The notes below the pieces were generated by a model. It ran no database searches. It saw nothing but the letters and a program-made list of their open reading frames with translations, and was not told the DNA's origin. Positions 10,327 to 24,502 of a stretch of DNA of 64,000 nucleotides are shown here, in pieces. A program made the position numbers and the translations under genes. The DNA is taken from the NCBI RefSeq assembly GCF_005049235.1, contig NZ_SUMD01000002.1:310001-374000 (forward strand), read 5' to 3'. How positions within the stretch are numbered: the stretch's first letter is position 1; each line of letters starts with the position of its first letter. This DNA comes from Rhodococcus oryzae. Lineage in GTDB: Bacteria > Actinomycetota > Actinomycetes > Mycobacteriales > Mycobacteriaceae.

Positions 10327-11349
10327 TCAGCGACCGGCGGTCGCCCGCCTGAACTCGGTGTCGGCCCGACGCAAGACGGCATTGCAGGCGTTGCACGTGT
10401 ACCGGGGTTCGAGCAGGTGCTCGCCTGCGTTGTGCACGATGGTCAGGCCGGATCGCCCGTCTTCGGACAGATGCCGCGCCGCCCACGCGTTGAGCGCGGC
10501 GAACACGGGAAAGAAGTCGAGGCTTTTTGGCGTGGTGCGGTATTCGTGCCGCCGCGCGCCATCCGTGATCGGCGTACGGACCAGCATTCCGTTGTCGACG
10601 AAGTAGGCGAGGCGGTCGGTCAGGGTGACCGGCGAGATCGACCCGAGCCGGTTCTGGAAGTCGCCGAACCGGCGGTTGCCCTCGAGTGCGGCGGCGAGCA
10701 GGAAGGTCGACCAGCGATCGGCGAGCACGCTGGTGGAGTCCATCCCCGGCGCGTCACCCTTCGCCGTGCGCCGAGATCGGCGGTCGGCGATGTCGACGAG
10801 GAGCGGCGCGTCGACCTCGGTCCGCACGTCGCGGGCGGTCACCCCGATCGCCGCGCAGCCGGCGCACCCGAAAATCGGCGTGATGAGGTGCCCGCACGGC
10901 AGGTGACGAAGGTGAGTGGTCGGCCGGTCGGGTGCCCACGGTGCCCAGTGGCGGTCCCAACTCCACAACGCGACGAAGGCCAGCCACAGGTCGTCACCGA
11001 GGTCGGTGAGGCGGTACTCGTTGCGCGGCGGCGCGGTCGAATACGGGTGCGCATCGAGGATTCCGTCCTCGATCAGGCGACCCAGACGATGCGAGAGGAC
11101 GGCGTCCGAGATCCCCAGTTCGTCACGTAGTTGCGAAAAGCGCTCGGCGCCGTCGAAGACTGCCCGGATGATCTGCAGATTCCATCGGTCACCCGCGATC
11201 AGCAGGGCGTGCCCCAGCGCGGACGATGCCGGGTGCGTCGGGACTGGGGACATGCCGTCAATCATCGCAAACAGCATGTGGCCGGGAACCGCGGCGGTCC
11301 GGCCCCATTCTCGGACTTTCGGCTTCTCATTAAGAAGTGATATCGGCAT
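10327..11349 (-). CDS. Duplicated HxlR-type regulator with Cys ribbons
   Basis: A 340-residue protein built as two copies of one unit. Copy one (residues about 40-180) has an HxlR winged helix (GDRWNLQIIRAVFDG, FSQLRDELGISDAVLSHRL) and then LPCGH...CAGC, a C-x9-C-x2-C ribbon. Copy two (about 205-335) repeats it (LADRWSTFLLAAALEG, FGDFQNRLGSISPVTLTDRL) and ends YTCNACNAVL, where the first Cys of the ribbon is replaced. Ordinary HxlR proteins are single winged helices of 100-150 residues. The start is probably ATG 11349 behind AGGTG; ATG 11277 and 11253 are alternatives. It is divergent from a thiolase and probably controls it. Confidence 0.8.
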   Translation of the reverse strand: MPISLLNEKPKVREWGRTAAVPGHMLFAMIDGMSPVPTHPASSALGHALLIAGDRWNLQIIRAVFDGAERFSQLRDELGISDAVLSHRLGRLIEDGILDAHPYSTAPPRNEYRLTDLGDDLWLAFVALWSWDRHWAPWAPDRPTTHLRHLPCGHLITPIFGCAGCAAIGVTARDVRTEVDAPLLVDIADRRSRRTAKGDAPGMDSTSVLADRWSTFLLAAALEGNRRFGDFQNRLGSISPVTLTDRLAYFVDNGMLVRTPITDGARRHEYRTTPKSLDFFPVFAALNAWAARHLSEDGRSGLTIVHNAGEHLLEPRYTCNACNAVLRRADTEFRRATAGR

Positions 11350-11355
11350 ACGACA

Positions 11356-11444
11356 CCTATTTCATAGGGGTATGTCCGCGTACCCAACGTTCAACTGTTG
11401 TACCGCTGGTTGATTCACTGATGCACCCAGTTGCGGAAGCAACT
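11356..11444. promoter_or_regulatory. Dyads between the HxlR regulator and the thiolase
   Basis: The 155-base divergent gap is the most AT-rich segment of the island and holds two clear inverted repeats: CCTAT-TTC-ATAGG at 11356-11368, next to the regulator start, and AGTTGC-GGAA-GCAACT at 11429-11444, nearer the thiolase. CAAC and GTTG also pair across eight bases near 11385-11400. These are reasonable operator candidates for the regulator. Confidence 0.45.
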
Positions 11445-11504
11445 ATGGATCTTGTAGTAACGGCAGGCCGTGGCTAACCTGAGATGCGACAACAAGGAGG
11501 AAAG

Positions 11505-12818: not shown

Positions 12819-14300
12819 CTACGCGCGGGCCTCGGCGAGCTGATCGGCGCGCACCCAGGTGGCATGGAAGCCGGAGGGAACCCGGCGCGGCAGCAGCACC
12901 CGCGCGATCGGTCCCGCCGCGACGTTCTCGGCATCGAAGATGTTGATCTCGCCCTTGTCTTCGGCCTCGTCGTTGACGAAGCAGACCAGGTAGCCGTCGG
13001 TCTCACCCGTCGATCCGTCGCGCGGGGCGAATGGTGCCTCCGAACCCCAACGCCCGGAACCGAACTTGTGCTCTTCCTTGGTGCCCGTCTGTGAGTCGAA
13101 CCGCACGAGCCCGTCGAAGAGCAGGGTCGGCTCGTTGCCGAGACTCATGCTGTACGAGTACCGGTGCGAGCGGCCCATCACACGCGAATCCACGCTGGGG
13201 AACTCGATGTTGGCATTGTCGAGTTCGGTTTCGATGGTGGCGCCAGTACGAAGGTTGAAGCGGTACCGGTAGAGCTGGGCGTCGAGCCGCATGTACGCGA
13301 GCATGTTCGACAGCGGGGAGGCGAAGGTCGTCTGGTGCTGAGGGTTCTTCACCCGGCACACGTCCATGATGATCTCGTCGCCCTCTTCCCACGAATTGAC
13401 CACGTGGTAGATGTAGCAGGGCTTCACCTCGAACCAGCGCACCTCGCTACCGTTGCCGTGGCGGGGAATGACCGCGAATCGAGCGGGAAGATCCTGATCG
13501 TAGAAGATCCGGTACTTGCCTGCCCGGCGCGCATCGTGATCCTGAACCAGCGGCAGATCCATCAGGATCGAGTAGTTCTCGGTGATCCCGATGTCGTGCG
13601 GAAGTCGCGGACCCGGCAGATCGATCTGAGTGAGGTGCGTCTGACGACCATCGGTGCCGATGATGCCGTAACGCAGGAAGTCCTGGTCGGGACCGTAGTC
13701 GAACCAGATCAGTTCGCCGGTGGCCTCGTCGACCTTGGGGTGGGCCATCATGTCCCCGGCAAAGGTTCCCAGGAAGTCCTGTGCACCAAGCGTTTCCAGG
13801 GACAGTGGGTCCACGGCGTAGGGCGTTCCGCAGAGGTACCAGGTCGCCAGGACCTGGCCGCGGTGGTAGATCACGTCGGTATTGGCGGAATCCTTGATCC
13901 CGAGGCCGTGTCCGTTGCCCCACGGATTGTCCTGCGGATTCTCCATCAGACCGGTCCACAGGGCACGGCCCGCCTCGGACTCATCCTGGAAGGCCTTGGT
14001 CTGGACGTACCGATTGCGGTACCGCACCTTCCCGTTCTCGAAGTGTGCGGCATGGATCATGCCGTCGCCGTCGAACATGTGATAGCGGCCCGGTGCCTCG
14101 AACTGCCGGTTCGGGCCGTTGCGGAGGTACACACCGTTGAGGTCCTTGGGGATCTCACCGATGACGGTGAGATCGTCGAGGGTGAGTTCGTCGTGGACCG
14201 GCGCGAACACCCCGAGGGTGTACGGATTGTCGTCGGTGGCGTCGACCGGGCGAGCGACGGCGATGGGGTCGCCGTTCGCGCGCGGCTGGGTGGAAGTCAT
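12819..14300 (-). CDS. Carotenoid-oxygenase-family dioxygenase
   Basis: A 493-residue enzyme of the carotenoid cleavage dioxygenase/RPE65 family (seven-bladed propeller). All four iron-binding histidines are readable: H187 (MAHPKVD), H235 (LPHDIGITE), H299 (YHVVNSWEEGD) and H479 (GFHATWV); GVYLRNGPN and MFDGDGMIHAAHF are the usual N-terminal blades. Bacterial members cleave carotenoids, apocarotenoids, stilbenes or phenylpropenoids such as isoeugenol at a C=C bond, giving aldehydes. Which of these is used is not visible. The ATG at 14300 overlaps the stop of the PaaI gene (ATGA), so it is the last gene of a five-gene operon that also encodes an aldehyde dehydrogenase, ligase and thiolase. Confidence 0.88.
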   Translation of the reverse strand: MTSTQPRANGDPIAVARPVDATDDNPYTLGVFAPVHDELTLDDLTVIGEIPKDLNGVYLRNGPNRQFEAPGRYHMFDGDGMIHAAHFENGKVRYRNRYVQTKAFQDESEAGRALWTGLMENPQDNPWGNGHGLGIKDSANTDVIYHRGQVLATWYLCGTPYAVDPLSLETLGAQDFLGTFAGDMMAHPKVDEATGELIWFDYGPDQDFLRYGIIGTDGRQTHLTQIDLPGPRLPHDIGITENYSILMDLPLVQDHDARRAGKYRIFYDQDLPARFAVIPRHGNGSEVRWFEVKPCYIYHVVNSWEEGDEIIMDVCRVKNPQHQTTFASPLSNMLAYMRLDAQLYRYRFNLRTGATIETELDNANIEFPSVDSRVMGRSHRYSYSMSLGNEPTLLFDGLVRFDSQTGTKEEHKFGSGRWGSEAPFAPRDGSTGETDGYLVCFVNDEAEDKGEINIFDAENVAAGPIARVLLPRRVPSGFHATWVRADQLAEARA

Positions 14301-14830
14301 GCCTGCTCCGTTTCGGTGTTGCTGTGTACAGGTCGAGAAGTTGAATGTTGTTGCGGTGCTGAGGGGTACAGGACCATCTGAGTGCAGCGGAAGAGCGCGA
14401 TCGCCTTCCCGGCGCTGTCGCGGACGGTGGCGTCCCACAGCTGCGTGCGCCGCCCACTGTGGACGAGGGTCGCCTCGACGGTGACCGTGCCGGACCGCGC
14501 GGTGCCGAGATAGTTCGTCTTGAGTTCGAGTGTGGTGAATCCAGATGCCTCGGCGGGCAGCGCCAGCCGTGCGCCGACACCGCACACGGTGTCGGCCAAT
14601 GCCACGACGGTGGCCGCGTGCAGATATCCGTTCGGTGCCAGCAGTTCCTCGCGAACGCGCAGTTCGCCGGTGACCTCCGACGCCGACGCCTCGAGGATGC
14701 GCATGCCGACCAGGCCAGGGAACCGCCCGTCCAGCATCGCCGTCATCTCGTCGGCGATGGGTCGGCCGGACCCGGTCGGTGTCTCGCGTGGCCTGCCGAC
14801 CGGTGCACCGTCGCCATCCGGTGATGCCAT
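14297..14830 (-). CDS. PaaI-type hotdog thioesterase
   Basis: A 177-residue hotdog protein. NGYLHAATVVALADTVCG (about residues 67-84) is the PaaI motif with the HAA variant of HGG and the catalytic aspartate in ALADT; the C-terminal 25 residues are a polar tail. Expected role: releasing CoA from dead-end or aryl/acyl-CoA intermediates. The start ATG 14830 lies two bases after the stop of the ligase gene, and its own stop overlaps the dioxygenase start, so expression is coupled on both sides. Confidence 0.82.
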   Translation of the reverse strand: MASPDGDGAPVGRPRETPTGSGRPIADEMTAMLDGRFPGLVGMRILEASASEVTGELRVREELLAPNGYLHAATVVALADTVCGVGARLALPAEASGFTTLELKTNYLGTARSGTVTVEATLVHSGRRTQLWDATVRDSAGKAIALFRCTQMVLYPSAPQQHSTSRPVHSNTETEQA

Positions 14831-14832
14831 TG

Positions 14833-16572
14833 TCAGCCGACCTTCTCGACCGCGCCGCGAATGTCGCGCCGCTGCAGCTTTCCGATCGGGTTCCTGGGAA
14901 GCTCGTCGACCGTCACGATCCGTTCCGGCAGCTTGAACGACGCCACCTCCTTCGCGCGCAGGAAGTCCACGAGGTCCTCGAGTGCGACCCCGTCGCTGGT
15001 GGCGGGAACAACTACCGCACAGCACTTCTCGCCGAGGACGTCATCGGGGTACCCGACGATGGCCACATCGGCGACGGCGGGGTGGTCGATGAGAATCCCC
15101 TCGATCTCGGCAGGAGCGATGTTCATGCCTCCGCGGATGATGATCTCCTTGCTGCGGTCGACGAACTTGAGGTACTCGCCGTTGTCCCCGCAGAGCTCGA
15201 AAATGTCTCCACTGCAGAGGTATCCGTCCTCGTCGAACGGGCTCGATGCCGCGGTTCCCTCCAGGTAGCCGGCGAAGATCGTCGGTCCCTTCAGCCGGAG
15301 CTCGCCGCGTCCGCCGACCGTGGTGACCTGTTCGCCGGTCGCCAGGTCCACCAGGCGCACCGAGGTGCGCTCGGCCACGTCGGTGGCCCACGACCTGTCC
15401 GGTGCGCCGTAGTTCGGCAGGTACTCTGCGCGGATCAGCGGGTCGGGCGTGTCAGACGGGGCGCCGAGCAGGCATACTCCCTCGTTCGAGCCGAAGAAGT
15501 TGAGCACCTCGACACCGAGCGAGTACTGCCAGTCGCGCACCACACCGGGGGGCAGCGGGGCGCCACCCGAACCCACCCGGCGGAGCGCGGACAGGTCGTA
15601 TGCGGTCCGAAGGTCCTCCCGCTGCAACAGCATGGTGAGAATCGCGGGCGGCATGCTCGTGTGGGTGACGCGGTAGCGCTGGAGCTGATCGAGATAGACG
15701 GCCAGGTCCAGCGGGTGGTGGTGGACCACGTGACCGCCGCCGAGCAGCCACGGCAGCAGCGAGGTCGCGAACCCGGCCATATTGACCATCGGGAACGGGT
15801 TGAGCATGACCGTTGCCTCGTCCGTCTCCAGTCCGTCCTGAACCGCCTGCCCGACCGCGATCCAGTCACCGTGACACCGGGGCACGCCCTTGGGTGCCGC
15901 CTCGGTGCCGCTGGTCCAGCAGATCGTGATGCAGTCGTTCACCGATCGGGGCAGCGCCGCGTAGGCGCGACGCGCGGCATCGAGCGATCCGTCGGTGGCG
16001 GGGGCGGCATCCAGCGGTCGGCCACTGTTCGACGAGGGCGGGCCGAAGGTGAACACGGTGCGCAGGGAGGGCAACTCGCCGATCAGGCCGAGCGCCTCCT
16101 CGGACGGCGACCGGTCGCCGAAGCTGTTGACGGTGACAACCGCGACGGCCGCAGCGGATTCGACGATCCGCGTCAGTTCGTATCGTCGGTACGAGGCCGG
16201 CATCGGGGCCGCGATCGCTCCGAGGCGCCACAGCGCGAAGTAGGTCGCGGTCAGGGCGACGGAGTTGGGCATCAGCACGGCAACGACATCGCCGGGACCG
16301 ATTCCCGACTCGTGCAGCTTCGCAGCCAGGTCATCGACGCGTGCGTCCAACTCCTGCCATGTCAGTGACTCCGGCTCGATCCCGCACAGCGCGGGCAGGT
16401 TCGTTGGATCGGTCACCGCCGGGGCGCCTCCGCGGCTCCGGACCTGGCCGTCGAGGAGGTCCAGCACGGTCAGCGGCGACCACCAGTGGTGTTCGAGGTA
16501 GTCGTCGACACGGCTGTCGGGATGGCACGGGCGTAAGCGGTTGGCGGAGGGGCCTTCCGGGAGGGCGTTCAT
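14833..16572 (-). CDS. AMP-forming acyl/aryl-CoA synthetase
   Basis: A 579-residue ANL-superfamily ligase. The phosphate-binding loop is CWTSGTEAAPKGVPRCHG, then FFGSNEGVCLLG (A5 region), SGDIFELCGDNGEYLKFVDR and RGGMNIAPAEIE (A8 hinge), and the catalytic lysine in NPIGKLQRRD near the C-terminus. It should activate a carboxylic acid to its CoA thioester with ATP. The long N-terminal section (about 45 residues before the first conserved block) is usual for cyclohexanecarboxylate/aryl-CoA ligase-like members. ATG 16572 follows AAAGGACGCC. Third gene of the operon; probably activates the acid made by the aldehyde dehydrogenase. Confidence 0.88.
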   Translation of the reverse strand: MNALPEGPSANRLRPCHPDSRVDDYLEHHWWSPLTVLDLLDGQVRSRGGAPAVTDPTNLPALCGIEPESLTWQELDARVDDLAAKLHESGIGPGDVVAVLMPNSVALTATYFALWRLGAIAAPMPASYRRYELTRIVESAAAVAVVTVNSFGDRSPSEEALGLIGELPSLRTVFTFGPPSSNSGRPLDAAPATDGSLDAARRAYAALPRSVNDCITICWTSGTEAAPKGVPRCHGDWIAVGQAVQDGLETDEATVMLNPFPMVNMAGFATSLLPWLLGGGHVVHHHPLDLAVYLDQLQRYRVTHTSMPPAILTMLLQREDLRTAYDLSALRRVGSGGAPLPPGVVRDWQYSLGVEVLNFFGSNEGVCLLGAPSDTPDPLIRAEYLPNYGAPDRSWATDVAERTSVRLVDLATGEQVTTVGGRGELRLKGPTIFAGYLEGTAASSPFDEDGYLCSGDIFELCGDNGEYLKFVDRSKEIIIRGGMNIAPAEIEGILIDHPAVADVAIVGYPDDVLGEKCCAVVVPATSDGVALEDLVDFLRAKEVASFKLPERIVTVDELPRNPIGKLQRRDIRGAVEKVG

Positions 16573-16606: not shown

Positions 16607-17803
16607 TCAGCGGAGACGGCGGATGACGACGGCGGCGCCGAGCCCGAGCGCTGCCGGGATGGTCACCAGGGCGTACTCGCCGTCGATGCGGGCGAGCTGG
16701 TCAAGGGCGTTGACGAGGAGGGCACCACCGCCCGCGCCCAGGGGGTGACCGGTGGCGAGAGATCCGCCGAGCGGGTTGACCCTGTTCGGATCGAGCCCCA
16801 GCTCCCGGGTCATCACCAGGACGGACGCGGCAAAGGATTCGTTCGCCTCGATCACGTCGAGCTGTCCGGCGGTGATCCCCGCGTTCTCGAGGGCACGCCT
16901 GGAGGCGACAACGGATGCCGTGAGCAGCGGCGAGCGCACGGCGGCCTGGGCTACGCCCACCACTTCCGCGATCGGCGCGCGGCCGAGCCGATCGCGGGCG
17001 GAGGAGGACCCGAAGACCGCCATCGCCGCACCATCCGCCATCTGCGGTGCGGTGGCTGCGGTGTGCAGCCCGCCCTCCGGCCGACCGACGGCGGGCAGAC
17101 GCATCGCCACCCGGCTCCACGACGGATCCTCCCCGAACAGGGGCGCGAGTCCGGCGAGTGATTCGAGGCTGATGTCCGGTCGGGGCCCCTCGTCCGAGCC
17201 GAGGATCGTGGTGGCGCCCGATCGGACCGGGATCACCGACTCGGACGGCGGGGCCGCGGCGGCACGGCGGTGAGAGGTCACCGCATATTCGTCGAGATCT
17301 GTTCGGGTAAACCCGTATTCGGCTGCGGTGAGGTCGGCGGAGACTCCGATGGTCACGTAACCCGTGCGGTCGCCGAGCTCCTCGTCGCCGAGGAAGGCCG
17401 GCCGGTCGGACAGCATCGGCACCCGCGACATCGACTCGACACCACCGGCGACGACGACATCGGCGATGCCGGACGCCACCTTGGCCGAGGCGGACTCGAT
17501 CGCGTCCAGCCCCGAGCAGCACAGTCGCGAGACCACGCCTGCGCCGACCTGGTCCGGCCAGCCAGCCCAGAGCACGGCGGTACGCGCGATGTCGCCGCCC
17601 TGGTCGCCGACGGCCGTGCTGGTGCCGACGATGACGTCGTCGACCGTGTCAGTGGGCAGTCCGCGTTCCTGCAGGGCGGACAGCAACTGGGCGAGGAGTT
17701 CGTGTGACGGTACGTCGGCGAACGTGCCGCCCTGGCGCCGGACCCGCGCCTTAGGGGTGCGAACGGCATCGTAGATATAGACGCCAGATGTGAACTGGGA
17801 CAT
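16607..17803 (-). CDS. FadA/PcaF-type thiolase homologue lacking the second cysteine
   Basis: A 398-residue thiolase-fold protein. The nucleophile C95 is in SRLCCSGLDAIESA (usually NRLCGSG), the NEAF-type motif is ANESFAASVL, and H353 is in GGSLATGHPLGAGG. The general-base cysteine should lie exactly 30 residues after that histidine in a C-x-G loop; here position 383 is proline, in YALVTIPAALGLGAAVV. The enzyme may therefore be slow, work in another direction, or use another base. The start ATG 17803 follows AAGGGGAG and lies two bases after the preceding stop. Second gene of the operon. The fold is certain, normal thiolase activity is not. Confidence 0.82.
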   Translation of the reverse strand: MSQFTSGVYIYDAVRTPKARVRRQGGTFADVPSHELLAQLLSALQERGLPTDTVDDVIVGTSTAVGDQGGDIARTAVLWAGWPDQVGAGVVSRLCCSGLDAIESASAKVASGIADVVVAGGVESMSRVPMLSDRPAFLGDEELGDRTGYVTIGVSADLTAAEYGFTRTDLDEYAVTSHRRAAAAPPSESVIPVRSGATTILGSDEGPRPDISLESLAGLAPLFGEDPSWSRVAMRLPAVGRPEGGLHTAATAPQMADGAAMAVFGSSSARDRLGRAPIAEVVGVAQAAVRSPLLTASVVASRRALENAGITAGQLDVIEANESFAASVLVMTRELGLDPNRVNPLGGSLATGHPLGAGGGALLVNALDQLARIDGEYALVTIPAALGLGAAVVIRRLR

Positions 17804-17805
17804 GG

Positions 17806-19467
17806 TCACTCCCCTTCGATCTGGCGACGATCCTGGACGATGCGAAAACGCCCGGCGATGAAGGACTCGTCGGTGAGGGTCGCATTGCCTGCAGGGTTGA
17901 GGCCGGTGACGTGGTAGTCGCTGTAGGCGGCCGCGAACTGCATGGGCATCGAGGACACCAGATTTGCCGACAGGGAGGCCCCGGCATCGGCGTATGCGTC
18001 CGCCACCTCGTCGATGACGGCGTCGTCGGTGCAATAGAGGTACGAGCTGATCGCGCCGTGACTGCGGACGCTCGCGGTCGCGTGCTCCACCGCGGACGCG
18101 GTGTCGGCGGCGTCGACGAGGAACGCGACCGGGCCGAACTGTTCGCCCTCGGGAAGGGTGTCTCCCCGGCGTGGGTCGACCCTGATGACCAGCGGGGTCG
18201 CCGCCCGGGCCTGGGGGTAGTCCGGATGCGCGTACGGCAGTGGCCTGCGGACCAGGGTCCCCCTCGCCTCGGCCGCGTCGGCGAGCGCGGTGATCGAGTG
18301 CAGCGTCGCGTCGGACTGCAGCGCGCCGCAGACGGCACCGGCGCGGCGAGGTGCGCCTGCCAGATCGTCGATCGCCGCGAGGAGCGCGGTGATGACGTCG
18401 TCTCGTGCGATCACACCCTCGTCCGTGCGCACACCGGCGTCCGGGATGTAGATGTTCTGCGGAGTGGTGCACATCTGACCACTGAAGAGCGAGAGACCCC
18501 CGGCGAGCGTCCGCATGGCTGCTGACAGGTCGGAAACAGAGTCCAGGACAACGGTGTTGACGCCCGCGGTCTCGGTGAACACCAGGGTGTTCGGGACGTT
18601 TCGTTCCAGCCACGACCCGAACGTGGGGCTGCCGGTGAAGTCGACGATCCGCACCTCGGGGCTGGTCGCCAGCTGCCCCGCGACCGGGGCGTCCGCGGTG
18701 TCGACGACCAACTGAACGGCGTCGGCAGGCAGCTGCGCCTCGGCCAGCACCTCGCGGATCACGCGAACCGCGAGCGCGGTCGCGAGCACCGAGCGGGGGT
18801 GCGGCTTGACGAGAACCGGATTTCCCGTCGCCAGGTTCGCGAGGATCGCCGGGTAGGCGTTCCATGCAGGGAACGAGGCGCAGGCGACGACGAGTGCGGT
18901 GCCGAGCGGGCGGGCGCGGAATCGCTTCCGCAGCGTCACATCCGACTTGCCGAATCGCTGCTGCCACGTCACGTGTCCTGGCACCCGGGTCATGGCCGAC
19001 CAGGCCATCGCCACGGCCTCAAGACCGCGGTCGAGCGCATTGGTCCCACTTCCGCTGCAGGCCATGTTGAGGCTCTGCCCTGTGGTGTGTGCGGTGACGG
19101 CCGCGAACTCCTGGCCGCGCTGGTGGATCCGGTGCAGTACCTCGAGGCACACGCCGACCCGACGCTCGACGTCGGCGTCGCGGAGGGCGGTGGCCGCGGC
19201 TGCCGCACCCACCAGCGCCTCGTCAACGGAGGGCGCGCTGTAGCTGACGTTGAGCGCCTTCGCGGTGTACGGCGAGATCTCGTCTGCGGTGATCACCGAG
19301 TCCGTGGGAGACGAAAGCGTCAGGGTGGCACCGTCGTAGGTGCCGAGGATGGCGTCGGCCTGCGCGGCGTCGGGCGGGGCGATGGGCGCATAACCGGTCC
19401 ACGCGGTGCGGGTGCGGTTGGCCTCTGTCGCTGCCTGCAGCAGTTCGAGGTGGGTTTCGAAGAACAT
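17806..19467 (-). CDS. PaaN-type aldehyde dehydrogenase
   Basis: A 553-residue aldehyde dehydrogenase of the PaaN group: MFFETHLELLQAATEANRTR opens it as in that family, FTETAGVNTVV carries the catalytic glutamate and GQMCTTPQNIYI the catalytic cysteine; VVACASFPAWNAYPAIL and NLATGNPVLVKPHPRS form the cofactor site. PaaN proteins are annotated in phenylacetate catabolism, with incompletely known substrates. In this context it probably oxidises an aldehyde made by the carotenoid-oxygenase-family enzyme (inference). Start chosen at ATG 19467 because the family motif begins there; a TTG seven codons upstream is also in frame. First gene of the operon, 182 bases after the regulator. Confidence 0.85.
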   Translation of the reverse strand: MFFETHLELLQAATEANRTRTAWTGYAPIAPPDAAQADAILGTYDGATLTLSSPTDSVITADEISPYTAKALNVSYSAPSVDEALVGAAAAATALRDADVERRVGVCLEVLHRIHQRGQEFAAVTAHTTGQSLNMACSGSGTNALDRGLEAVAMAWSAMTRVPGHVTWQQRFGKSDVTLRKRFRARPLGTALVVACASFPAWNAYPAILANLATGNPVLVKPHPRSVLATALAVRVIREVLAEAQLPADAVQLVVDTADAPVAGQLATSPEVRIVDFTGSPTFGSWLERNVPNTLVFTETAGVNTVVLDSVSDLSAAMRTLAGGLSLFSGQMCTTPQNIYIPDAGVRTDEGVIARDDVITALLAAIDDLAGAPRRAGAVCGALQSDATLHSITALADAAEARGTLVRRPLPYAHPDYPQARAATPLVIRVDPRRGDTLPEGEQFGPVAFLVDAADTASAVEHATASVRSHGAISSYLYCTDDAVIDEVADAYADAGASLSANLVSSMPMQFAAAYSDYHVTGLNPAGNATLTDESFIAGRFRIVQDRRQIEGE

Positions 19468-19563: not shown

Positions 19564-19581
19564 CTACTATTATTGAAGTGA
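19564..19581. promoter_or_regulatory. Operator-like motif upstream of the aldehyde dehydrogenase operon
   Basis: Read on the minus strand the site is TCACTTCAATAATAGTAG. It matches the site at 21896-21913 at 14 of 18 positions, with an identical ACTTCAATAA core and GTAG end. It lies 97 bases upstream of the operon start, in an AT-rich patch of the 182-base gap. A shared regulator, most simply one of the two duplicated HxlR proteins, would explain it. Confidence 0.5.
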
Positions 19582-19649
19582 ACCAGCACACACAGCGGGT
19601 TGTCAACGGTCGACGATGTCGGACCGTTCGAGGGTGAGAGTTGCTTCGG

Positions 19650-20591
19650 CTAGCGCGGGAGCCGAGCGCCGAACGGAAACGGCTCGAAGCGCACGGACGT
19701 GCGTTTCAGCCTGGCCTCGCATCCGCGGCACCGCAGCGCCGGGAGCAACCAGGAGCCGCAGTCGTGGTGGCGGATCTTCGGACCGAGCGGGAGTGCGCCG
19801 GGGTGCGCGAGCTCTGTCCAGGACAGCAGGAAGGCGAAGATCGGGAACAATCCCCTGCCTCGCGGGGTCAGCACGTACTCGCGGCCGCCGCCGTGTTCGG
19901 CCCGGGTGAGGATCTGCACTTCGGACAGCCGTCCCAACCGCTCGGTGAGGGTCGTCGGCGAGATGCTCAGGATCGACTGGAACTCGCCGAAGCGGCGAAC
20001 CCCCGACAGCGCCAAGCCCGTGACCATGGCGCTCCAGCGGTCGCCGATCGCCTCCATGACCTCGGTGAACTGCAGGTCGGCCCGGCTCACTGACGGGGCG
20101 GTGCGTGTCGACCGCCTTCGCCCGCCCCGTGCCACGAGGACCAGAGATTCGCGGTCCAGCTCGAGCCGCGCATCGCGCGTACCGACGGCGCCGCCGCAGT
20201 GCCTGCACATCATCGCCGGTGGTCCCCGGTGGCCGCAGTCGATGTGCACCAACTCGGGTTGCAGCAGCCCTTCCGGGGACCACTCGCGCTGCCATGCCCA
20301 CACGCTGGCCAGGATCTCCCAGGTCGCCAGGCCGAGCTCGGTCAGCAGGTAGTCGTGGCGGTCGCCGCCGTTCGGCTGCGGCCTGCGTTCCATCAGGCCC
20401 GCCTCGACCAGCGCGTTCAGTCGTGCCGTCAGCATGGCGGGCGGAGCGCCGGTTCGGTCGATCCACTGGCTGAAGCGGCGCACGTGATCGACGAAGACCT
20501 CGCGCAGGATGGCAAGGGTCAGCCGGTCGCCGAGCAGGTCGATCGTCTGGGCAACCGGACTCGGAGGTGCGGCGGCGCCGGGTTCGGCCAC
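19650..20591 (-). CDS. Second duplicated HxlR-type regulator with Cys ribbons
   Basis: A 313-residue protein with the same double architecture as the regulator at 10327-11349. Copy one has LLGDRLTLAILREVFVDH, FSQWIDRTGAPPAMLTARL and IDCGHRGPPAMMCRHCG; copy two has IGDRWSAMVTGLALSG, FGEFQSILSISPTTLTERL and HHDCGSWLLPALRCRGCE. Both ribbons keep C-x9-C-x2-C, a likely metal site. The start is GTG 20591, eight bases after GGAAGG; another GTG nine bases upstream overlaps that site. It follows the third thiolase on the same strand by 53 bases and precedes the aldehyde dehydrogenase operon, so it probably regulates both. Confidence 0.8.
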   Translation of the reverse strand: MAEPGAAAPPSPVAQTIDLLGDRLTLAILREVFVDHVRRFSQWIDRTGAPPAMLTARLNALVEAGLMERRPQPNGGDRHDYLLTELGLATWEILASVWAWQREWSPEGLLQPELVHIDCGHRGPPAMMCRHCGGAVGTRDARLELDRESLVLVARGGRRRSTRTAPSVSRADLQFTEVMEAIGDRWSAMVTGLALSGVRRFGEFQSILSISPTTLTERLGRLSEVQILTRAEHGGGREYVLTPRGRGLFPIFAFLLSWTELAHPGALPLGPKIRHHDCGSWLLPALRCRGCEARLKRTSVRFEPFPFGARLPR

Positions 20592-20644
20592 GTCACCCAC
20601 CTTCCGGTACTGCCTGTGACGATCGCGTCCCGCGGATCGCTTGT

Positions 20645-21838
20645 TCAGGCCTCCAACACAATAGCGATGCCCTGTCCCACGCCGATGCACGCAGCCGCGA
20701 CCCCGATGCCCCCGCCGAGTCGGCGGAGATGGCGCAGGCAGTCGACCACCATTCGGGCCGCCGACGCGCCGATCGGATGACCAAGGGCGATCGCGCCGCC
20801 GAAGGGGTTGACGCGATCGACCGGGATGCCGGGGAGTTCACGCAGGCAGGACAGCACCATCGCGGCGAATGCCTCGTTGAGCTCGAGCACTCGAACGTCG
20901 GCGAGCTCGAGACCCGCTCGGTCCAGGGCCTTTGCGATCGCGGAGACGGGCGCCAGCGCGAACTTGTCGGGTTCGGTGCCGACGACCGCGGAGGCCAGCA
21001 CCCGGCCGAGCGGTTCGACGCCGAGCTCGTCGGCGACGGCTCCGGTGCCGACCAGCGCCGCGACCGCTCCGTCGCTGATCGGGGACGAGTTCCCGGCGGT
21101 GACGCTGCCGCCGCTCGAGAAGGCCGGCCGCAGGGTGGCCAGGGTGGCGGCATCGGTCTCCCGGATGGGTTCGTCGCGGTCGAGGGTCGGGTGCGGCATC
21201 ACGAAGCCGTCGTGCACGCCGTCCGTCCACGCCCGGCCGGCCAGCTCGTGTGACCGAAGCGCCCATTCGTCCTGCTCGAGGCGGCCGACGCCCAGCTGCT
21301 CCGCCACCAGTTCCGCGGATCTTCCGAGCGACTCGACCCAGGCCGCGGGAAATTTGGGGTTCGGCATGCGCCACCCGACGGTGGTGGGGATCAGCTCCAT
21401 CGATCGCGGGAACGCGGCGTCCACGGGCGGGAGCACGTACGGTGCGCGGCTCATGCTCTCCGAGCCGCCTGCGATCGTGATCTCGGCGTCGCCGACCGCG
21501 ACGCGCCTGACCGCGGACAACACCGCCTCGGCGCCGGAGCCGCACAGCCGGTTGACCGACACCCCCGGAATCGTGTGCGGAAGCCCCGCGAGCAGCAGCG
21601 CCATCCGGGCCACGTTGCGGTTGTCCTCGCCCGCGCCGTTGGAATTTCCCCAGACGACATCGTCGATGCGGCCCGGATCGAGCGCGGGGTGCCTGCGGAC
21701 CAGGTCGGCGATCGGAAGCGCGGCCAGGTCGTCGGCCCTGACGCGCGAGAGCGCCCCGCGGGCCGCGCCGAACGGGGTTCGGACGGCATCGATCACCCAC
21801 GGCGCGCGACGGTCCGACGGGGAAAGGCTCTGGGTCAT
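20645..21838 (-). CDS. Thiolase (acetyl-CoA acyltransferase, PcaF/FadA type)
   Basis: A 397-residue thiolase with a full catalytic set: C99 in VNRLCGSGAEAV, LNEAFAAMVLS, H354 in GGAIALGHPIGAS and C384 in AACIGVGQGIA, the last two exactly 30 residues apart. It should cleave a 3-ketoacyl-CoA to acetyl-CoA and a shortened acyl-CoA; the sequence resembles the PcaF/PaaJ group that acts on 3-oxoadipyl-CoA, though the substrate cannot be fixed. Start ATG 21838 after GGAGGAGTCCCC. Divergent from an acyl-CoA synthetase across 92 bases that contain the operator-like motif. It is the only FadA-type thiolase in the island with both cysteines. Confidence 0.9.
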   Translation of the reverse strand: MTQSLSPSDRRAPWVIDAVRTPFGAARGALSRVRADDLAALPIADLVRRHPALDPGRIDDVVWGNSNGAGEDNRNVARMALLLAGLPHTIPGVSVNRLCGSGAEAVLSAVRRVAVGDAEITIAGGSESMSRAPYVLPPVDAAFPRSMELIPTTVGWRMPNPKFPAAWVESLGRSAELVAEQLGVGRLEQDEWALRSHELAGRAWTDGVHDGFVMPHPTLDRDEPIRETDAATLATLRPAFSSGGSVTAGNSSPISDGAVAALVGTGAVADELGVEPLGRVLASAVVGTEPDKFALAPVSAIAKALDRAGLELADVRVLELNEAFAAMVLSCLRELPGIPVDRVNPFGGAIALGHPIGASAARMVVDCLRHLRRLGGGIGVAAACIGVGQGIAIVLEA

Positions 21839-21895
21839 GGGGACTCCTCCTGTGCGGTCGGGTGCGGCCCTTGCGGAATCTCGCCCGCCTGTTGT

Positions 21896-21913
21896 CTACT
21901 TCAATAACTGTAG
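21896..21913. promoter_or_regulatory. Operator-like motif in the divergent thiolase/ligase promoter
   Basis: CTACTTCAATAACTGTAG: an imperfect dyad with CTAC and GTAG arms around ten bases. The ligase ATG is 18 bases downstream and the thiolase start 58 bases to the left, so a bound protein could affect both. Shares 14 of 18 positions with the minus-strand site at 19564-19581. Confidence 0.55.
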
Positions 21914-21930
21914 CGAATGGAAGGAGCCTC

Positions 21931-23490
21931 ATGTCGATAGCCGACGTGCTTCGTACCGCGGCCGATCGGTACGGGCCCGCGATCGCGATCGAGGACAGCT
22001 GCAAGTCTCGAACGTTCACCGAACTCTCCGACCGGGCACACGCGCTGGCCGGGGCCCTCGATGACCTCGGCCTCGCAGTGGGGAGCCGGGTCGTCGTCCT
22101 GCTCGGCAACGCCGTCGAGGCGGTCGAGGTCGATCTCGCGCTGGCGATCGGCGGCTTCGTCCGGGTCGCTCTCAATCCGCGCGTCGGATCTCTGGATTGG
22201 GAACGCGTTGTGCACGACTGCGCGCCAGACGCGCTGATCGTCGACCCTCGGATCGCGGGCGCGGCCGAGTTCACCGCCCGGACGCTCACCCCGACAGTGA
22301 TCACCGTCGACGGGACCTCGTCGACCCTGCCGTCGCTCGACGAGTTGGCGACCGGAGCCGCCCGTCACGCTGCGATTCCTACGCCTGAGCCGGATTCGCT
22401 GTGCGCGTTGCACTATTCGTCCGGGACAACCGGGGTACCGAAGGGCGCCCAGCGGACCCACGCGAACCGGCTGGCTTCGCTGCGCGCGATGCGCGACCAG
22501 GTGCTCGCAGGCACCCTCGACGGCGCCGAGCCGGCGGTGTTCCTGCATGTAGGCCCCGTCATTCACACCAGCGGGCTCTTCGTGCTGCCGTTCCTCGAGG
22601 CCGGTGGACGACAGGTGCTGCTCGATCACATCGGCCCGGCGGGTCTGATCGACGCCGTCGAGGCCCACGCCGCGACCCACACCGCGCTGGTGCCCACGGT
22701 CATCGCCCGGCTGCTGGACTTCGACGACGACCGGCTGTCGGTGATGCGGCGCATGCGCATGCTCGCGTATGCGGGCGCACCGATGCCGGTCGAGCATGTC
22801 CGGCAGGCATACCGCCGCATCACGCCCAATCTCGTTCAGTACTACGGGATGGTCGAGGCGATCCCGCCCCTGACCGTGTTGACCGCGGCGGACCACCGCC
22901 GCGGCGTGCTCGAGAACCCCGACCTGCTCGGCTCGGTGGGTCGGGCCTGCCCGGAGGCGGACATCGTCATCCGCGATCTCGGCGATGCCGTCCCCAACGG
23001 GGAGGTCGGCGAGCTCGTCGTCGCAGGCCCCGCGGTCAGCCCGGGGTATCACAATGCGGGCACGCGAACGGATCTGGGCAAGAGCCATGTCGACGGCGTG
23101 CTCTACTCGGGCGACCTCGGCTACCGCGATCAAGACGGTTACATCCATCTGACCGGCCGCAGCAAGGACATGATCATCACCGGCGGATACAACGTTTATC
23201 CCCGCGAGGTGGAGGAGGCGATCTCCGCGATCCCCGGGGTCGACGATGTCGTCGTCGTCGGGCTGCCAGACGAGGTGTGGGGGCAACGCATCGTCGCCGC
23301 GTACACATCGACCGCCGACGCGGGGGTCGACGAGGGCGTCGTGCTGGCGGAGAGCCGCAGGCGGCTGCCCGACTACAAACGCCCCAAGGCCGCGCAGTGC
23401 GTCGACCGTCTCCCGTTGACCGCGCTGGGAAAGGTGGATCGGGCGGCGGCCGCCGAGCTGCTCGGCGCCCTGGGCCGTACCGCATCGTGA
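21931..23490 (+). CDS. AMP-forming acyl-CoA synthetase
   Basis: A 519-residue ANL ligase: LHYSSGTTGVPKGAQRTH is the phosphate loop (about residues 163-180), YYGMVEAIPPL the A5 motif, YSGDLGYRDQDGYIHLTGRS and KDMIITGGYNVYPREVEEAI the A7-A8 region, and TALGKVDRAAAAEL the C-terminal catalytic lysine. It should make an acyl-CoA from a free acid and ATP. It belongs to the FadD/long-chain ligase-like branch and differs clearly from the ligase at 14833-16572, so the two likely act on different acids or at different steps. ATG 21931 follows AAGGAGCCTC. Followed after 46 bases by the nitronate-monooxygenase-family gene. Confidence 0.9.
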   Translation: MSIADVLRTAADRYGPAIAIEDSCKSRTFTELSDRAHALAGALDDLGLAVGSRVVVLLGNAVEAVEVDLALAIGGFVRVALNPRVGSLDWERVVHDCAPDALIVDPRIAGAAEFTARTLTPTVITVDGTSSTLPSLDELATGAARHAAIPTPEPDSLCALHYSSGTTGVPKGAQRTHANRLASLRAMRDQVLAGTLDGAEPAVFLHVGPVIHTSGLFVLPFLEAGGRQVLLDHIGPAGLIDAVEAHAATHTALVPTVIARLLDFDDDRLSVMRRMRMLAYAGAPMPVEHVRQAYRRITPNLVQYYGMVEAIPPLTVLTAADHRRGVLENPDLLGSVGRACPEADIVIRDLGDAVPNGEVGELVVAGPAVSPGYHNAGTRTDLGKSHVDGVLYSGDLGYRDQDGYIHLTGRSKDMIITGGYNVYPREVEEAISAIPGVDDVVVVGLPDEVWGQRIVAAYTSTADAGVDEGVVLAESRRRLPDYKRPKAAQCVDRLPLTALGKVDRAAAAELLGALGRTAS

Positions 23491-23536: not shown

Positions 23537-24502
23537 ATGACCGACTCTTTCCTGTCCACCCTGCGCCTGCCGGTCGTCGCGGCACCGATGTTCCTGGTGT
23601 CCGGCCCGGAGCTCGTCACCGCTGCCTGTACCGCCGGCATCGTCGGCTCCTTCCCGACGCAGAACTGCCGCACCGCGGCGGACCTCGACACCTGGATGGG
23701 ATCGATCACCGATCAGCTCCGCGCGGCCGAGGCCGCCGCGGTCCCGGTCGCCCCGTGGGCGGCAAACGTGATCACCCACAGCAGCAACGCCCGGCTCGCT
23801 GACGACCTGCGCCTCATCGCCGAGTACAAGCCGCAGATCGTCATCACCGCACTCGGATCCCCGAAGCCCGTGATGGACATCGTCAAGGGATACGGCGGCA
23901 CGGTGATCGCCGACGTGGTGAACCTGCGCCTCGCGCGCAAGGCCGCCGACGCGGGCGTGGACGGCATGGCCTGCGTGTCGGCGGGCGCAGGCGGACACAC
24001 GGGCCACCTGTCGCCCTTCGCGTTCACCTCTGCCGTGCGCGAGTTCTTCGACGGGATGATCATCATCGGGGGCGGCATCAGTGACGGTCACGGTGTCGCG
24101 GGTGCGATCACCGCAGGCGCCGACCTCGTTTACATGGGTACCCGGTTCCTGGCGGCCGCAGAGAGCATGGCCGCGGACGGGTACAAGCAGATGGTCGTCG
24201 ACCACGGTCCCGACGACCTCGTGGTCAGCTCCGCGATCACCGGCACCCCGGCCTCCTGGCTCAAGCCCAGCCTCGCTGCCTGCGGACTCGATCCCGACAA
24301 CCTGACGCCGCCGATCGGGGAGAAGAACTACACCGCCGGTGCGGAATCGATGAAGCGATGGAAGGACGTCTGGGCGGCCGGCCAGGGGCTCGCGCCCATC
24401 CGCGGGATCGAACCGGTGAGCACGATCGTCGAGAGCATCGAGAAGGAGTACGTCACGGCGTTGCAGCGGTCGAGTCGGTTGATCGCGACGGCAGTGCGTT
24501 GA
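23537..24502 (+). CDS. Nitronate monooxygenase-family FMN protein
   Basis: A 321-residue TIM-barrel flavoprotein of the 2-nitropropane dioxygenase/nitronate monooxygenase family. LPVVAAPMFLVSGPELVTA opens the barrel, SAGAGGHTGHLSPFAF is the phosphate/FMN loop, and IIIGGGISDGHGVAGAITAGADLVYMGTRF (in part) the second FMN site. Members oxidise alkyl nitronates, and relatives include FabK enoyl reductases and other poorly known flavoenzymes, so a redox step on a CoA intermediate is also possible. ATG 23537 after AGAGGA. Probably co-transcribed with the upstream synthetase; together they form the rightward arm of the island. Confidence 0.82.
   Translation: MTDSFLSTLRLPVVAAPMFLVSGPELVTAACTAGIVGSFPTQNCRTAADLDTWMGSITDQLRAAEAAAVPVAPWAANVITHSSNARLADDLRLIAEYKPQIVITALGSPKPVMDIVKGYGGTVIADVVNLRLARKAADAGVDGMACVSAGAGGHTGHLSPFAFTSAVREFFDGMIIIGGGISDGHGVAGAITAGADLVYMGTRFLAAAESMAADGYKQMVVDHGPDDLVVSSAITGTPASWLKPSLAACGLDPDNLTPPIGEKNYTAGAESMKRWKDVWAAGQGLAPIRGIEPVSTIVESIEKEYVTALQRSSRLIATAVR

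Follow-up and report, generated by a model that had tools for sequence, protein, structure and literature searches.

A shared inverted repeat in two promoters of a Rhodococcus oryzae catabolic island as the putative operator of a tandem-HxlR regulator

What do two promoters of one gene island in Rhodococcus oryzae share, and which protein might read it? Within the window, the whole 64,000-nucleotide stretch of DNA that was analysed, an earlier note had drawn attention to two operator-like sites said to agree at 14 of 18 bases around an identical core and to lie in upstream regions, and had proposed the neighbouring double-HxlR protein as the factor that binds them. The agreement is as described, with ACTTCAATAA as the core, and both sites (operators 1 and 2, Table 1) are intergenic and upstream of genes. 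Operator 1 is located between the end of hxlR1 and the start of the PaaN-like aldehyde dehydrogenase gene (ALDH; 19467, minus strand), and operator 2 between the thiolase start at 21838 (minus strand) and the acyl-CoA ligase start at 21931 (plus strand). We regard it as highly probable, from the sequence comparisons presented here, that both are operators by which the adjacent tandem-HxlR protein, HxlR1, would repress a CoA-dependent catabolic island.

Table 1. Features of the island and of its promoters; positions are those of the window.
Feature	Position	Strand	Remarks
HxlR2, paralogous tandem-HxlR	10327..11349	-	Homology from near residue 36; true start probably near 11253
Putative HxlR2 operator B, near match ACTTCTTAATGAGAAGC	11322..11338	-	Before hxlR2; equivalent ACT-N11-AGT sites in other ortholog loci
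Putative HxlR2 operator A, ACTATGGATCTTGTAGT (ACT-N11-AGT)	11442..11458	+	Before thiolase-like gene at 11484/11505
RPE65-family carotenoid/stilbene-type cleavage oxygenase	12819..14315	-	Pfam PF03055, E 4e-137; start inferred
4HBT (hotdog) thioesterase	14297..14836	-	Pfam PF03061; approximate start, listed ORF 14297-15025
LigaseB, AMP-forming acyl-CoA ligase	14833..16572	-	
ThiolaseB	16607..17773	-	
PaaN-like aldehyde dehydrogenase (ALDH)	17806..19467	-	First behind operator 1; TIGR02288 534 bits, cut-off 578.75
Operator 1 (putative), TCACTTCAATAATAGTAG	19564..19581	-	Promoter of ALDH operon
-10-like TTCACT, ALDH-operon promoter	19577-19582	-	18-bp spacer after -35; operator 1 overlaps
-35 box TTGACA, ALDH-operon promoter	19601..19606	-	CGTTGAC invariant in 18 aligned loci, spacer 17-18 bp
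HxlR1, tandem-HxlR regulator, 313 aa	19650..20591	-	Pfam HxlR (PF01638) twice
ThiolaseA, acetyl-CoA C-acyltransferase	20645..21838	-	Best models PcaF-type, below their cut-offs
-35-like box TTGCGG, ligaseA promoter	21871..21876	+	TTGC invariant in 17 aligned loci
-10-like TCTACT, ligaseA promoter	21895-21900	+	18-bp spacer after -35; operator 2 overlaps
Operator 2 (putative), CTACTTCAATAACTGTAG	21896..21913	+	Between divergent thiolaseA-hxlR1 and ligaseA-NMO
LigaseA, AMP-forming acyl-CoA ligase	21931..23490	+	First gene behind operator 2
Nitronate monooxygenase / FabK-like flavoprotein (NMO)	23537..24502	+	Behind ligaseA

Rarity, symmetry and promoter position of the two sites

The core ACTTCAATAA occurs twice in the window, where dinucleotide shuffles give an expectation of 0.01. 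Pattern searches of the entire 5.37 Mb genome returned exactly two copies, both at this island, and none for the control pattern read backwards; hence the motif is not common elsewhere in the genome; its being common there is what the earlier note had said would speak against an operator. When the 16-mer ACTTCAATAAYWGTAG was searched genome-wide with up to three mismatches, the two sites were recovered as perfect matches together with five sequences at three mismatches, compared with 13 for the backwards control. These five fall below the control level, and no further regulon members were found in this genome. A chance match between the two sites is rejected on the strength of the shuffles, the genome-wide uniqueness and the association with the regulator across genomes described below: their agreement is far from chance.

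Both sites contain an imperfect inverted repeat of 17 bp, ACTTCA-N5-TGTAGT, whose centre is shifted rightwards by 1.5 bases relative to that of the originally described 18-mer. Operator 1 carries it as ACTTCA-ATAAT-AGTAGT (19579-19563) and operator 2 as ACTTCA-ATAAC-TGTAGC (21898-21914). Across 63 collected sites the arms ACTTCA and TGTAGT are separated by 5 bases, the dyad centre falls on position 11 of the 18-mer register, and 60% of the opposed positions form complementary pairs against a background of 25%. The distance from the -35 box to the operator is constant, the register to the promoter is the same for both operators, and both are oriented towards the gene that they precede. The -35 box at site 1 (TTGACA) equals the consensus, and the -10 hexamers TTCACT and TCTACT match the sigma-70 consensus at only 3-4 of 6 positions.

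Judged from position only, the protein bound here would most likely act as a repressor and not as an activator: the operator overlaps the -10 element, and the -35 box of the promoter is conserved. We propose that the two winged helix-turn-helix (wHTH) domains of HxlR1 would bind the repeat in successive major grooves and that the bound protein would block RNA polymerase at the -10/start region. This binding would have two main consequences: i) at operator 1, repression of the ALDH-thiolaseB-ligaseB-thioesterase-RPE65 series, and ii) at operator 2, repression of the divergent thiolaseA-hxlR1 and ligaseA-NMO units, including autoregulation. A pathway substrate or an acyl-CoA intermediate would then release HxlR1. 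That HxlR1 acts instead as an activator or a dual regulator at both sites seems unlikely to us. Such a role would suit the listing of B. subtilis HxlR in the PDB as a transcriptional activator and the orientation of both operators towards the gene behind them; yet the sites lie over the -10/start region and not at or upstream of the -35 box, where simple activators bind, and at site 1 the -35 box is already at consensus.

Conservation of the sites and their association with the regulator

Is the motif retained where the regulator is retained? Orthologs of the regulator were gathered both across 401 genomes of the family and in named genomes, which belong mostly to Nocardia, Prescottella and Rhodococcus. 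Each of the 23 close ortholog loci, from Rhodococcus, Prescottella and Nocardia, has both sites at the same places; these orthologs share ancestry and are therefore not independent cases, and the flanking DNA has diverged. Loss of the motif from the same loci in relatives, the other outcome that the earlier note had held against an operator, is thus not seen among the close orthologs. In the aligned regions the mean column identity is 94.8% for operator 1 and 97.2% for operator 2, compared with 71-73% over 45 bp on the upstream side and 56-75% on the downstream side. Ranked by conservation among the 17-mers of its region, operator 2 comes second of 104 and operator 1 fourth of 149, the best window in the latter case beginning three bases upstream. 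Gene order is rearranged in distant Nocardia (regulator 62-65% identical) and in genus g27; there, the sites are found flanking the regulator gene or ahead of RPE65, thiolaseB-ligaseB-NMO or thiolase genes. That the sites move with the pathway genes argues against mere shared ancestry of one stretch of DNA. Distant paralogs, at most about 40% identical, lack the motif at their loci, and no convincing site was found in the loci of two ortholog genomes whose regulator is about 51% identical. Apparent sites in loci L064 and L065 were discarded as they lie inside the hxlR coding region.

The 401 genomes were also searched with the 15-mer pattern ACTTCANTAAYNGTA, counting as ortholog-bearing the 27 genomes that have a regulator ortholog with an E value no worse than about 1e-95. 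The pattern is present in 24 genomes, 21 of which have the ortholog; put the other way, it occurs in 21/27 ortholog genomes versus 3/374 others (Fisher p=1e-26). Of the six ortholog genomes missed by the 15-mer, at least four carry variants such as ATGCTTCAATAACTGTAC. The matches in the genomes without an ortholog (G374 and G361, genus g3, and G420) look like chance. Extra matches in G176 (L116) and G196 (L117), which have neither a rightly spaced -35 box nor a convincing gene behind them, were set aside as chance or contaminant. With island uniqueness, locus conservation and this tracking of the regulator, the evidence favours the earlier proposal that the adjacent double-HxlR protein is the one that binds the sites.

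These data also bear on whether the motif is merely a part of the core promoter, a -10 element with its start region kept by RNA polymerase and no operator of any regulator. The overlap with the -10 element and the constant spacing from a conserved -35 box are what such an explanation would predict. We nevertheless hold it to be very improbable, given that the sites are missing in 371 of the 374 genomes without the regulator, that conservation continues past the -10 element through the right arm TGTAG, that the dyad is clear, and that a housekeeping promoter is not expected at two places only in a genome.

Two further operator-like sequences were noticed outside the island, in G216 (L119:4506) and G375 (L120:12237). 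Both read ACTTCACTAACTGTAG and have a TTGACA some 18 bp further upstream, and the genes behind them are a reductase-like gene and an SDR gene; they are possible extra regulon members.

The tandem architecture of HxlR1 and the genes under its putative control

The reading of the regulator as a double HxlR holds, since the Pfam HxlR family matches it in two stretches (87 bits, against a gathering score of 20.8). The two halves can be aligned over their full length, each consisting of a wHTH domain and, behind it, a Cys-rich tail, and the protein stands outside the single-domain homodimer format of about 110-150 aa that is typical of the family, though not required by the Pfam definition. The AlphaFold model predicts one confident fold for the entire chain (pTM 0.83, mean pLDDT 82.6), and the closest solved folds to the halves are PA1607, PA1374, YodB and HypR; on these grounds one chain could serve as a built-in dimer. 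A conserved Cys pattern follows each HTH (CGH...CxxC and CG...CRGC) and is possibly a metal site.

The wHTH fold of HxlR1 is that of the DUF24 redox sensors of the YodB/HypR type and of QsrR from S. aureus. YodB prefers the inverted-repeat operator TACT-N7-AGTA (PMC8063818), and the catDE promoter carries both CatR and YodB boxes (PMC6212828). ACT/AGT arms in an inverted repeat are common to the YodB operator and the HxlR1 sites; however, in the latter (ACT-N11-AGT) they stand four bases wider apart, and the YodB consensus is not matched. The proteins differ as well: YodB/HypR-type regulators are homodimers of about 110 aa whose conserved, redox-reactive Cys lies close to the N-terminus (Cys6 in YodB), whereas the 313-aa tandem HxlR1 has no N-terminal redox Cys, its first Cys being residue 119 and its Cys residues sitting in the tails after each HTH. 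PA1607 and PA1374 of P. aeruginosa (PDB 2f2e and 4gcv), the best structural and sequence matches for one HxlR1 half, have a single domain each and are entered in the PDB as putative transcription factors. In its way of working, the closest precedent by analogy would be Mce3R of M. tuberculosis, a double-TetR repressor whose structure has a single chain bound to an asymmetric operator of 25 bp (PMC11667970). Like HxlR1 it combines two non-identical copies of a DNA-binding domain in one polypeptide, but it has the unrelated TetR fold and 25-bp non-palindromic sites, while the HxlR1 sites keep a clear dyad. For the likely inducer, a model from a related genus is CouR, the MarR-type repressor of the p-hydroxycinnamate genes of R. 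jostii RHA1, a catabolic repressor that is released by an acyl-CoA intermediate (PMC4737184); its regulator family and operator differ from those of HxlR1. A search of the literature in open-licence papers found no described operator of a tandem-HxlR protein.

As to the genes concerned, thiolaseA lies upstream of hxlR1 and is probably cotranscribed with it, and the RPE65-family oxygenase is the last gene of the series behind operator 1. From this gene content we infer a CoA-dependent pathway that would include the oxidative cleavage of a double bond. The best PDB match of the oxygenase is a carotenoid 9,10-dioxygenase (E 3e-91), and the island may degrade an apocarotenoid. The oxygenase scores higher against carotenoid 9,10-dioxygenase entries of the PDB than against lignostilbene dioxygenases. 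The putative operator provides a handle on the substrate of this orphan island, with its RPE65-type oxygenase, PaaN-like aldehyde dehydrogenase, two thiolases and two CoA ligases. At the same time, the uncharacterised tandem-HxlR subfamily, with two HxlR domains per chain, gains a putative DNA target, a small regulon and a gene set. As a type of element the operator is unremarkable; the novelty lies in a putative target for tandem-HxlR proteins and in a pair of paralogs that can be compared.

The paralog HxlR2 and the choice of sites

The second member of this pair, HxlR2, is encoded 9 kb from HxlR1 in the same island. Sites of the ACTATGGATCTTGTAGT type are conserved in HxlR2 ortholog loci, and putative operator A is the only perfect match in the genome. 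Close HxlR2 orthologs were found in 11 of the 401 genomes, mostly with ACT-N11-AGT sites of their own upstream. The HxlR2 sites share this geometry with the HxlR1 sites and differ from them in the inner bases. When ACT-Nk-AGT was counted for k=5 to 16, k=11 stood out in HxlR1 loci (29) and HxlR2 loci (23), was weak in distant tandem-HxlR loci (18) and was not enriched in other HxlR loci (1).

Might HxlR2, or an unlinked protein, be what binds operators 1 and 2? Cross-binding by a paralog in the same island with putative sites of like geometry is conceivable; even so, we judge another regulator very unlikely, as most motif-bearing genomes lack close HxlR2 orthologs, HxlR1 is present in 21 of the 24 and the HxlR2 loci have their own, different sites. 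With HxlR1 kept as the probable reader of operators 1 and 2, the two proteins form a natural paralog pair for the study of site choice by tandem HTH repressors. Tentatively, the single-chain tandem-HxlR repressors of Nocardia, Prescottella, Rhodococcus and relatives might read a directional ACT(N3)-N5-(N3)AGT element, one arm for each non-identical HTH, with the inner arm bases distinguishing the sites of HxlR1 from those of HxlR2 (ACTTCA/ACTACA versus ACTATG/ACTACA). All 63 collected HxlR1 sites have T at both of the symmetric positions 6 and 16, which would fit a directional operator; these two letters were, however, set by the search pattern, and one type of HxlR2 site comes close to symmetry. 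In the distant tandem-HxlR loci L146, L149, L151, L159 and L161, mostly of genus g29, ACT-N11-AGT repeats also occur, often as ACTC-N9-GAGT; they sit just downstream of the regulator gene and may, in this other branch of the family, serve as operators for the gene that follows.
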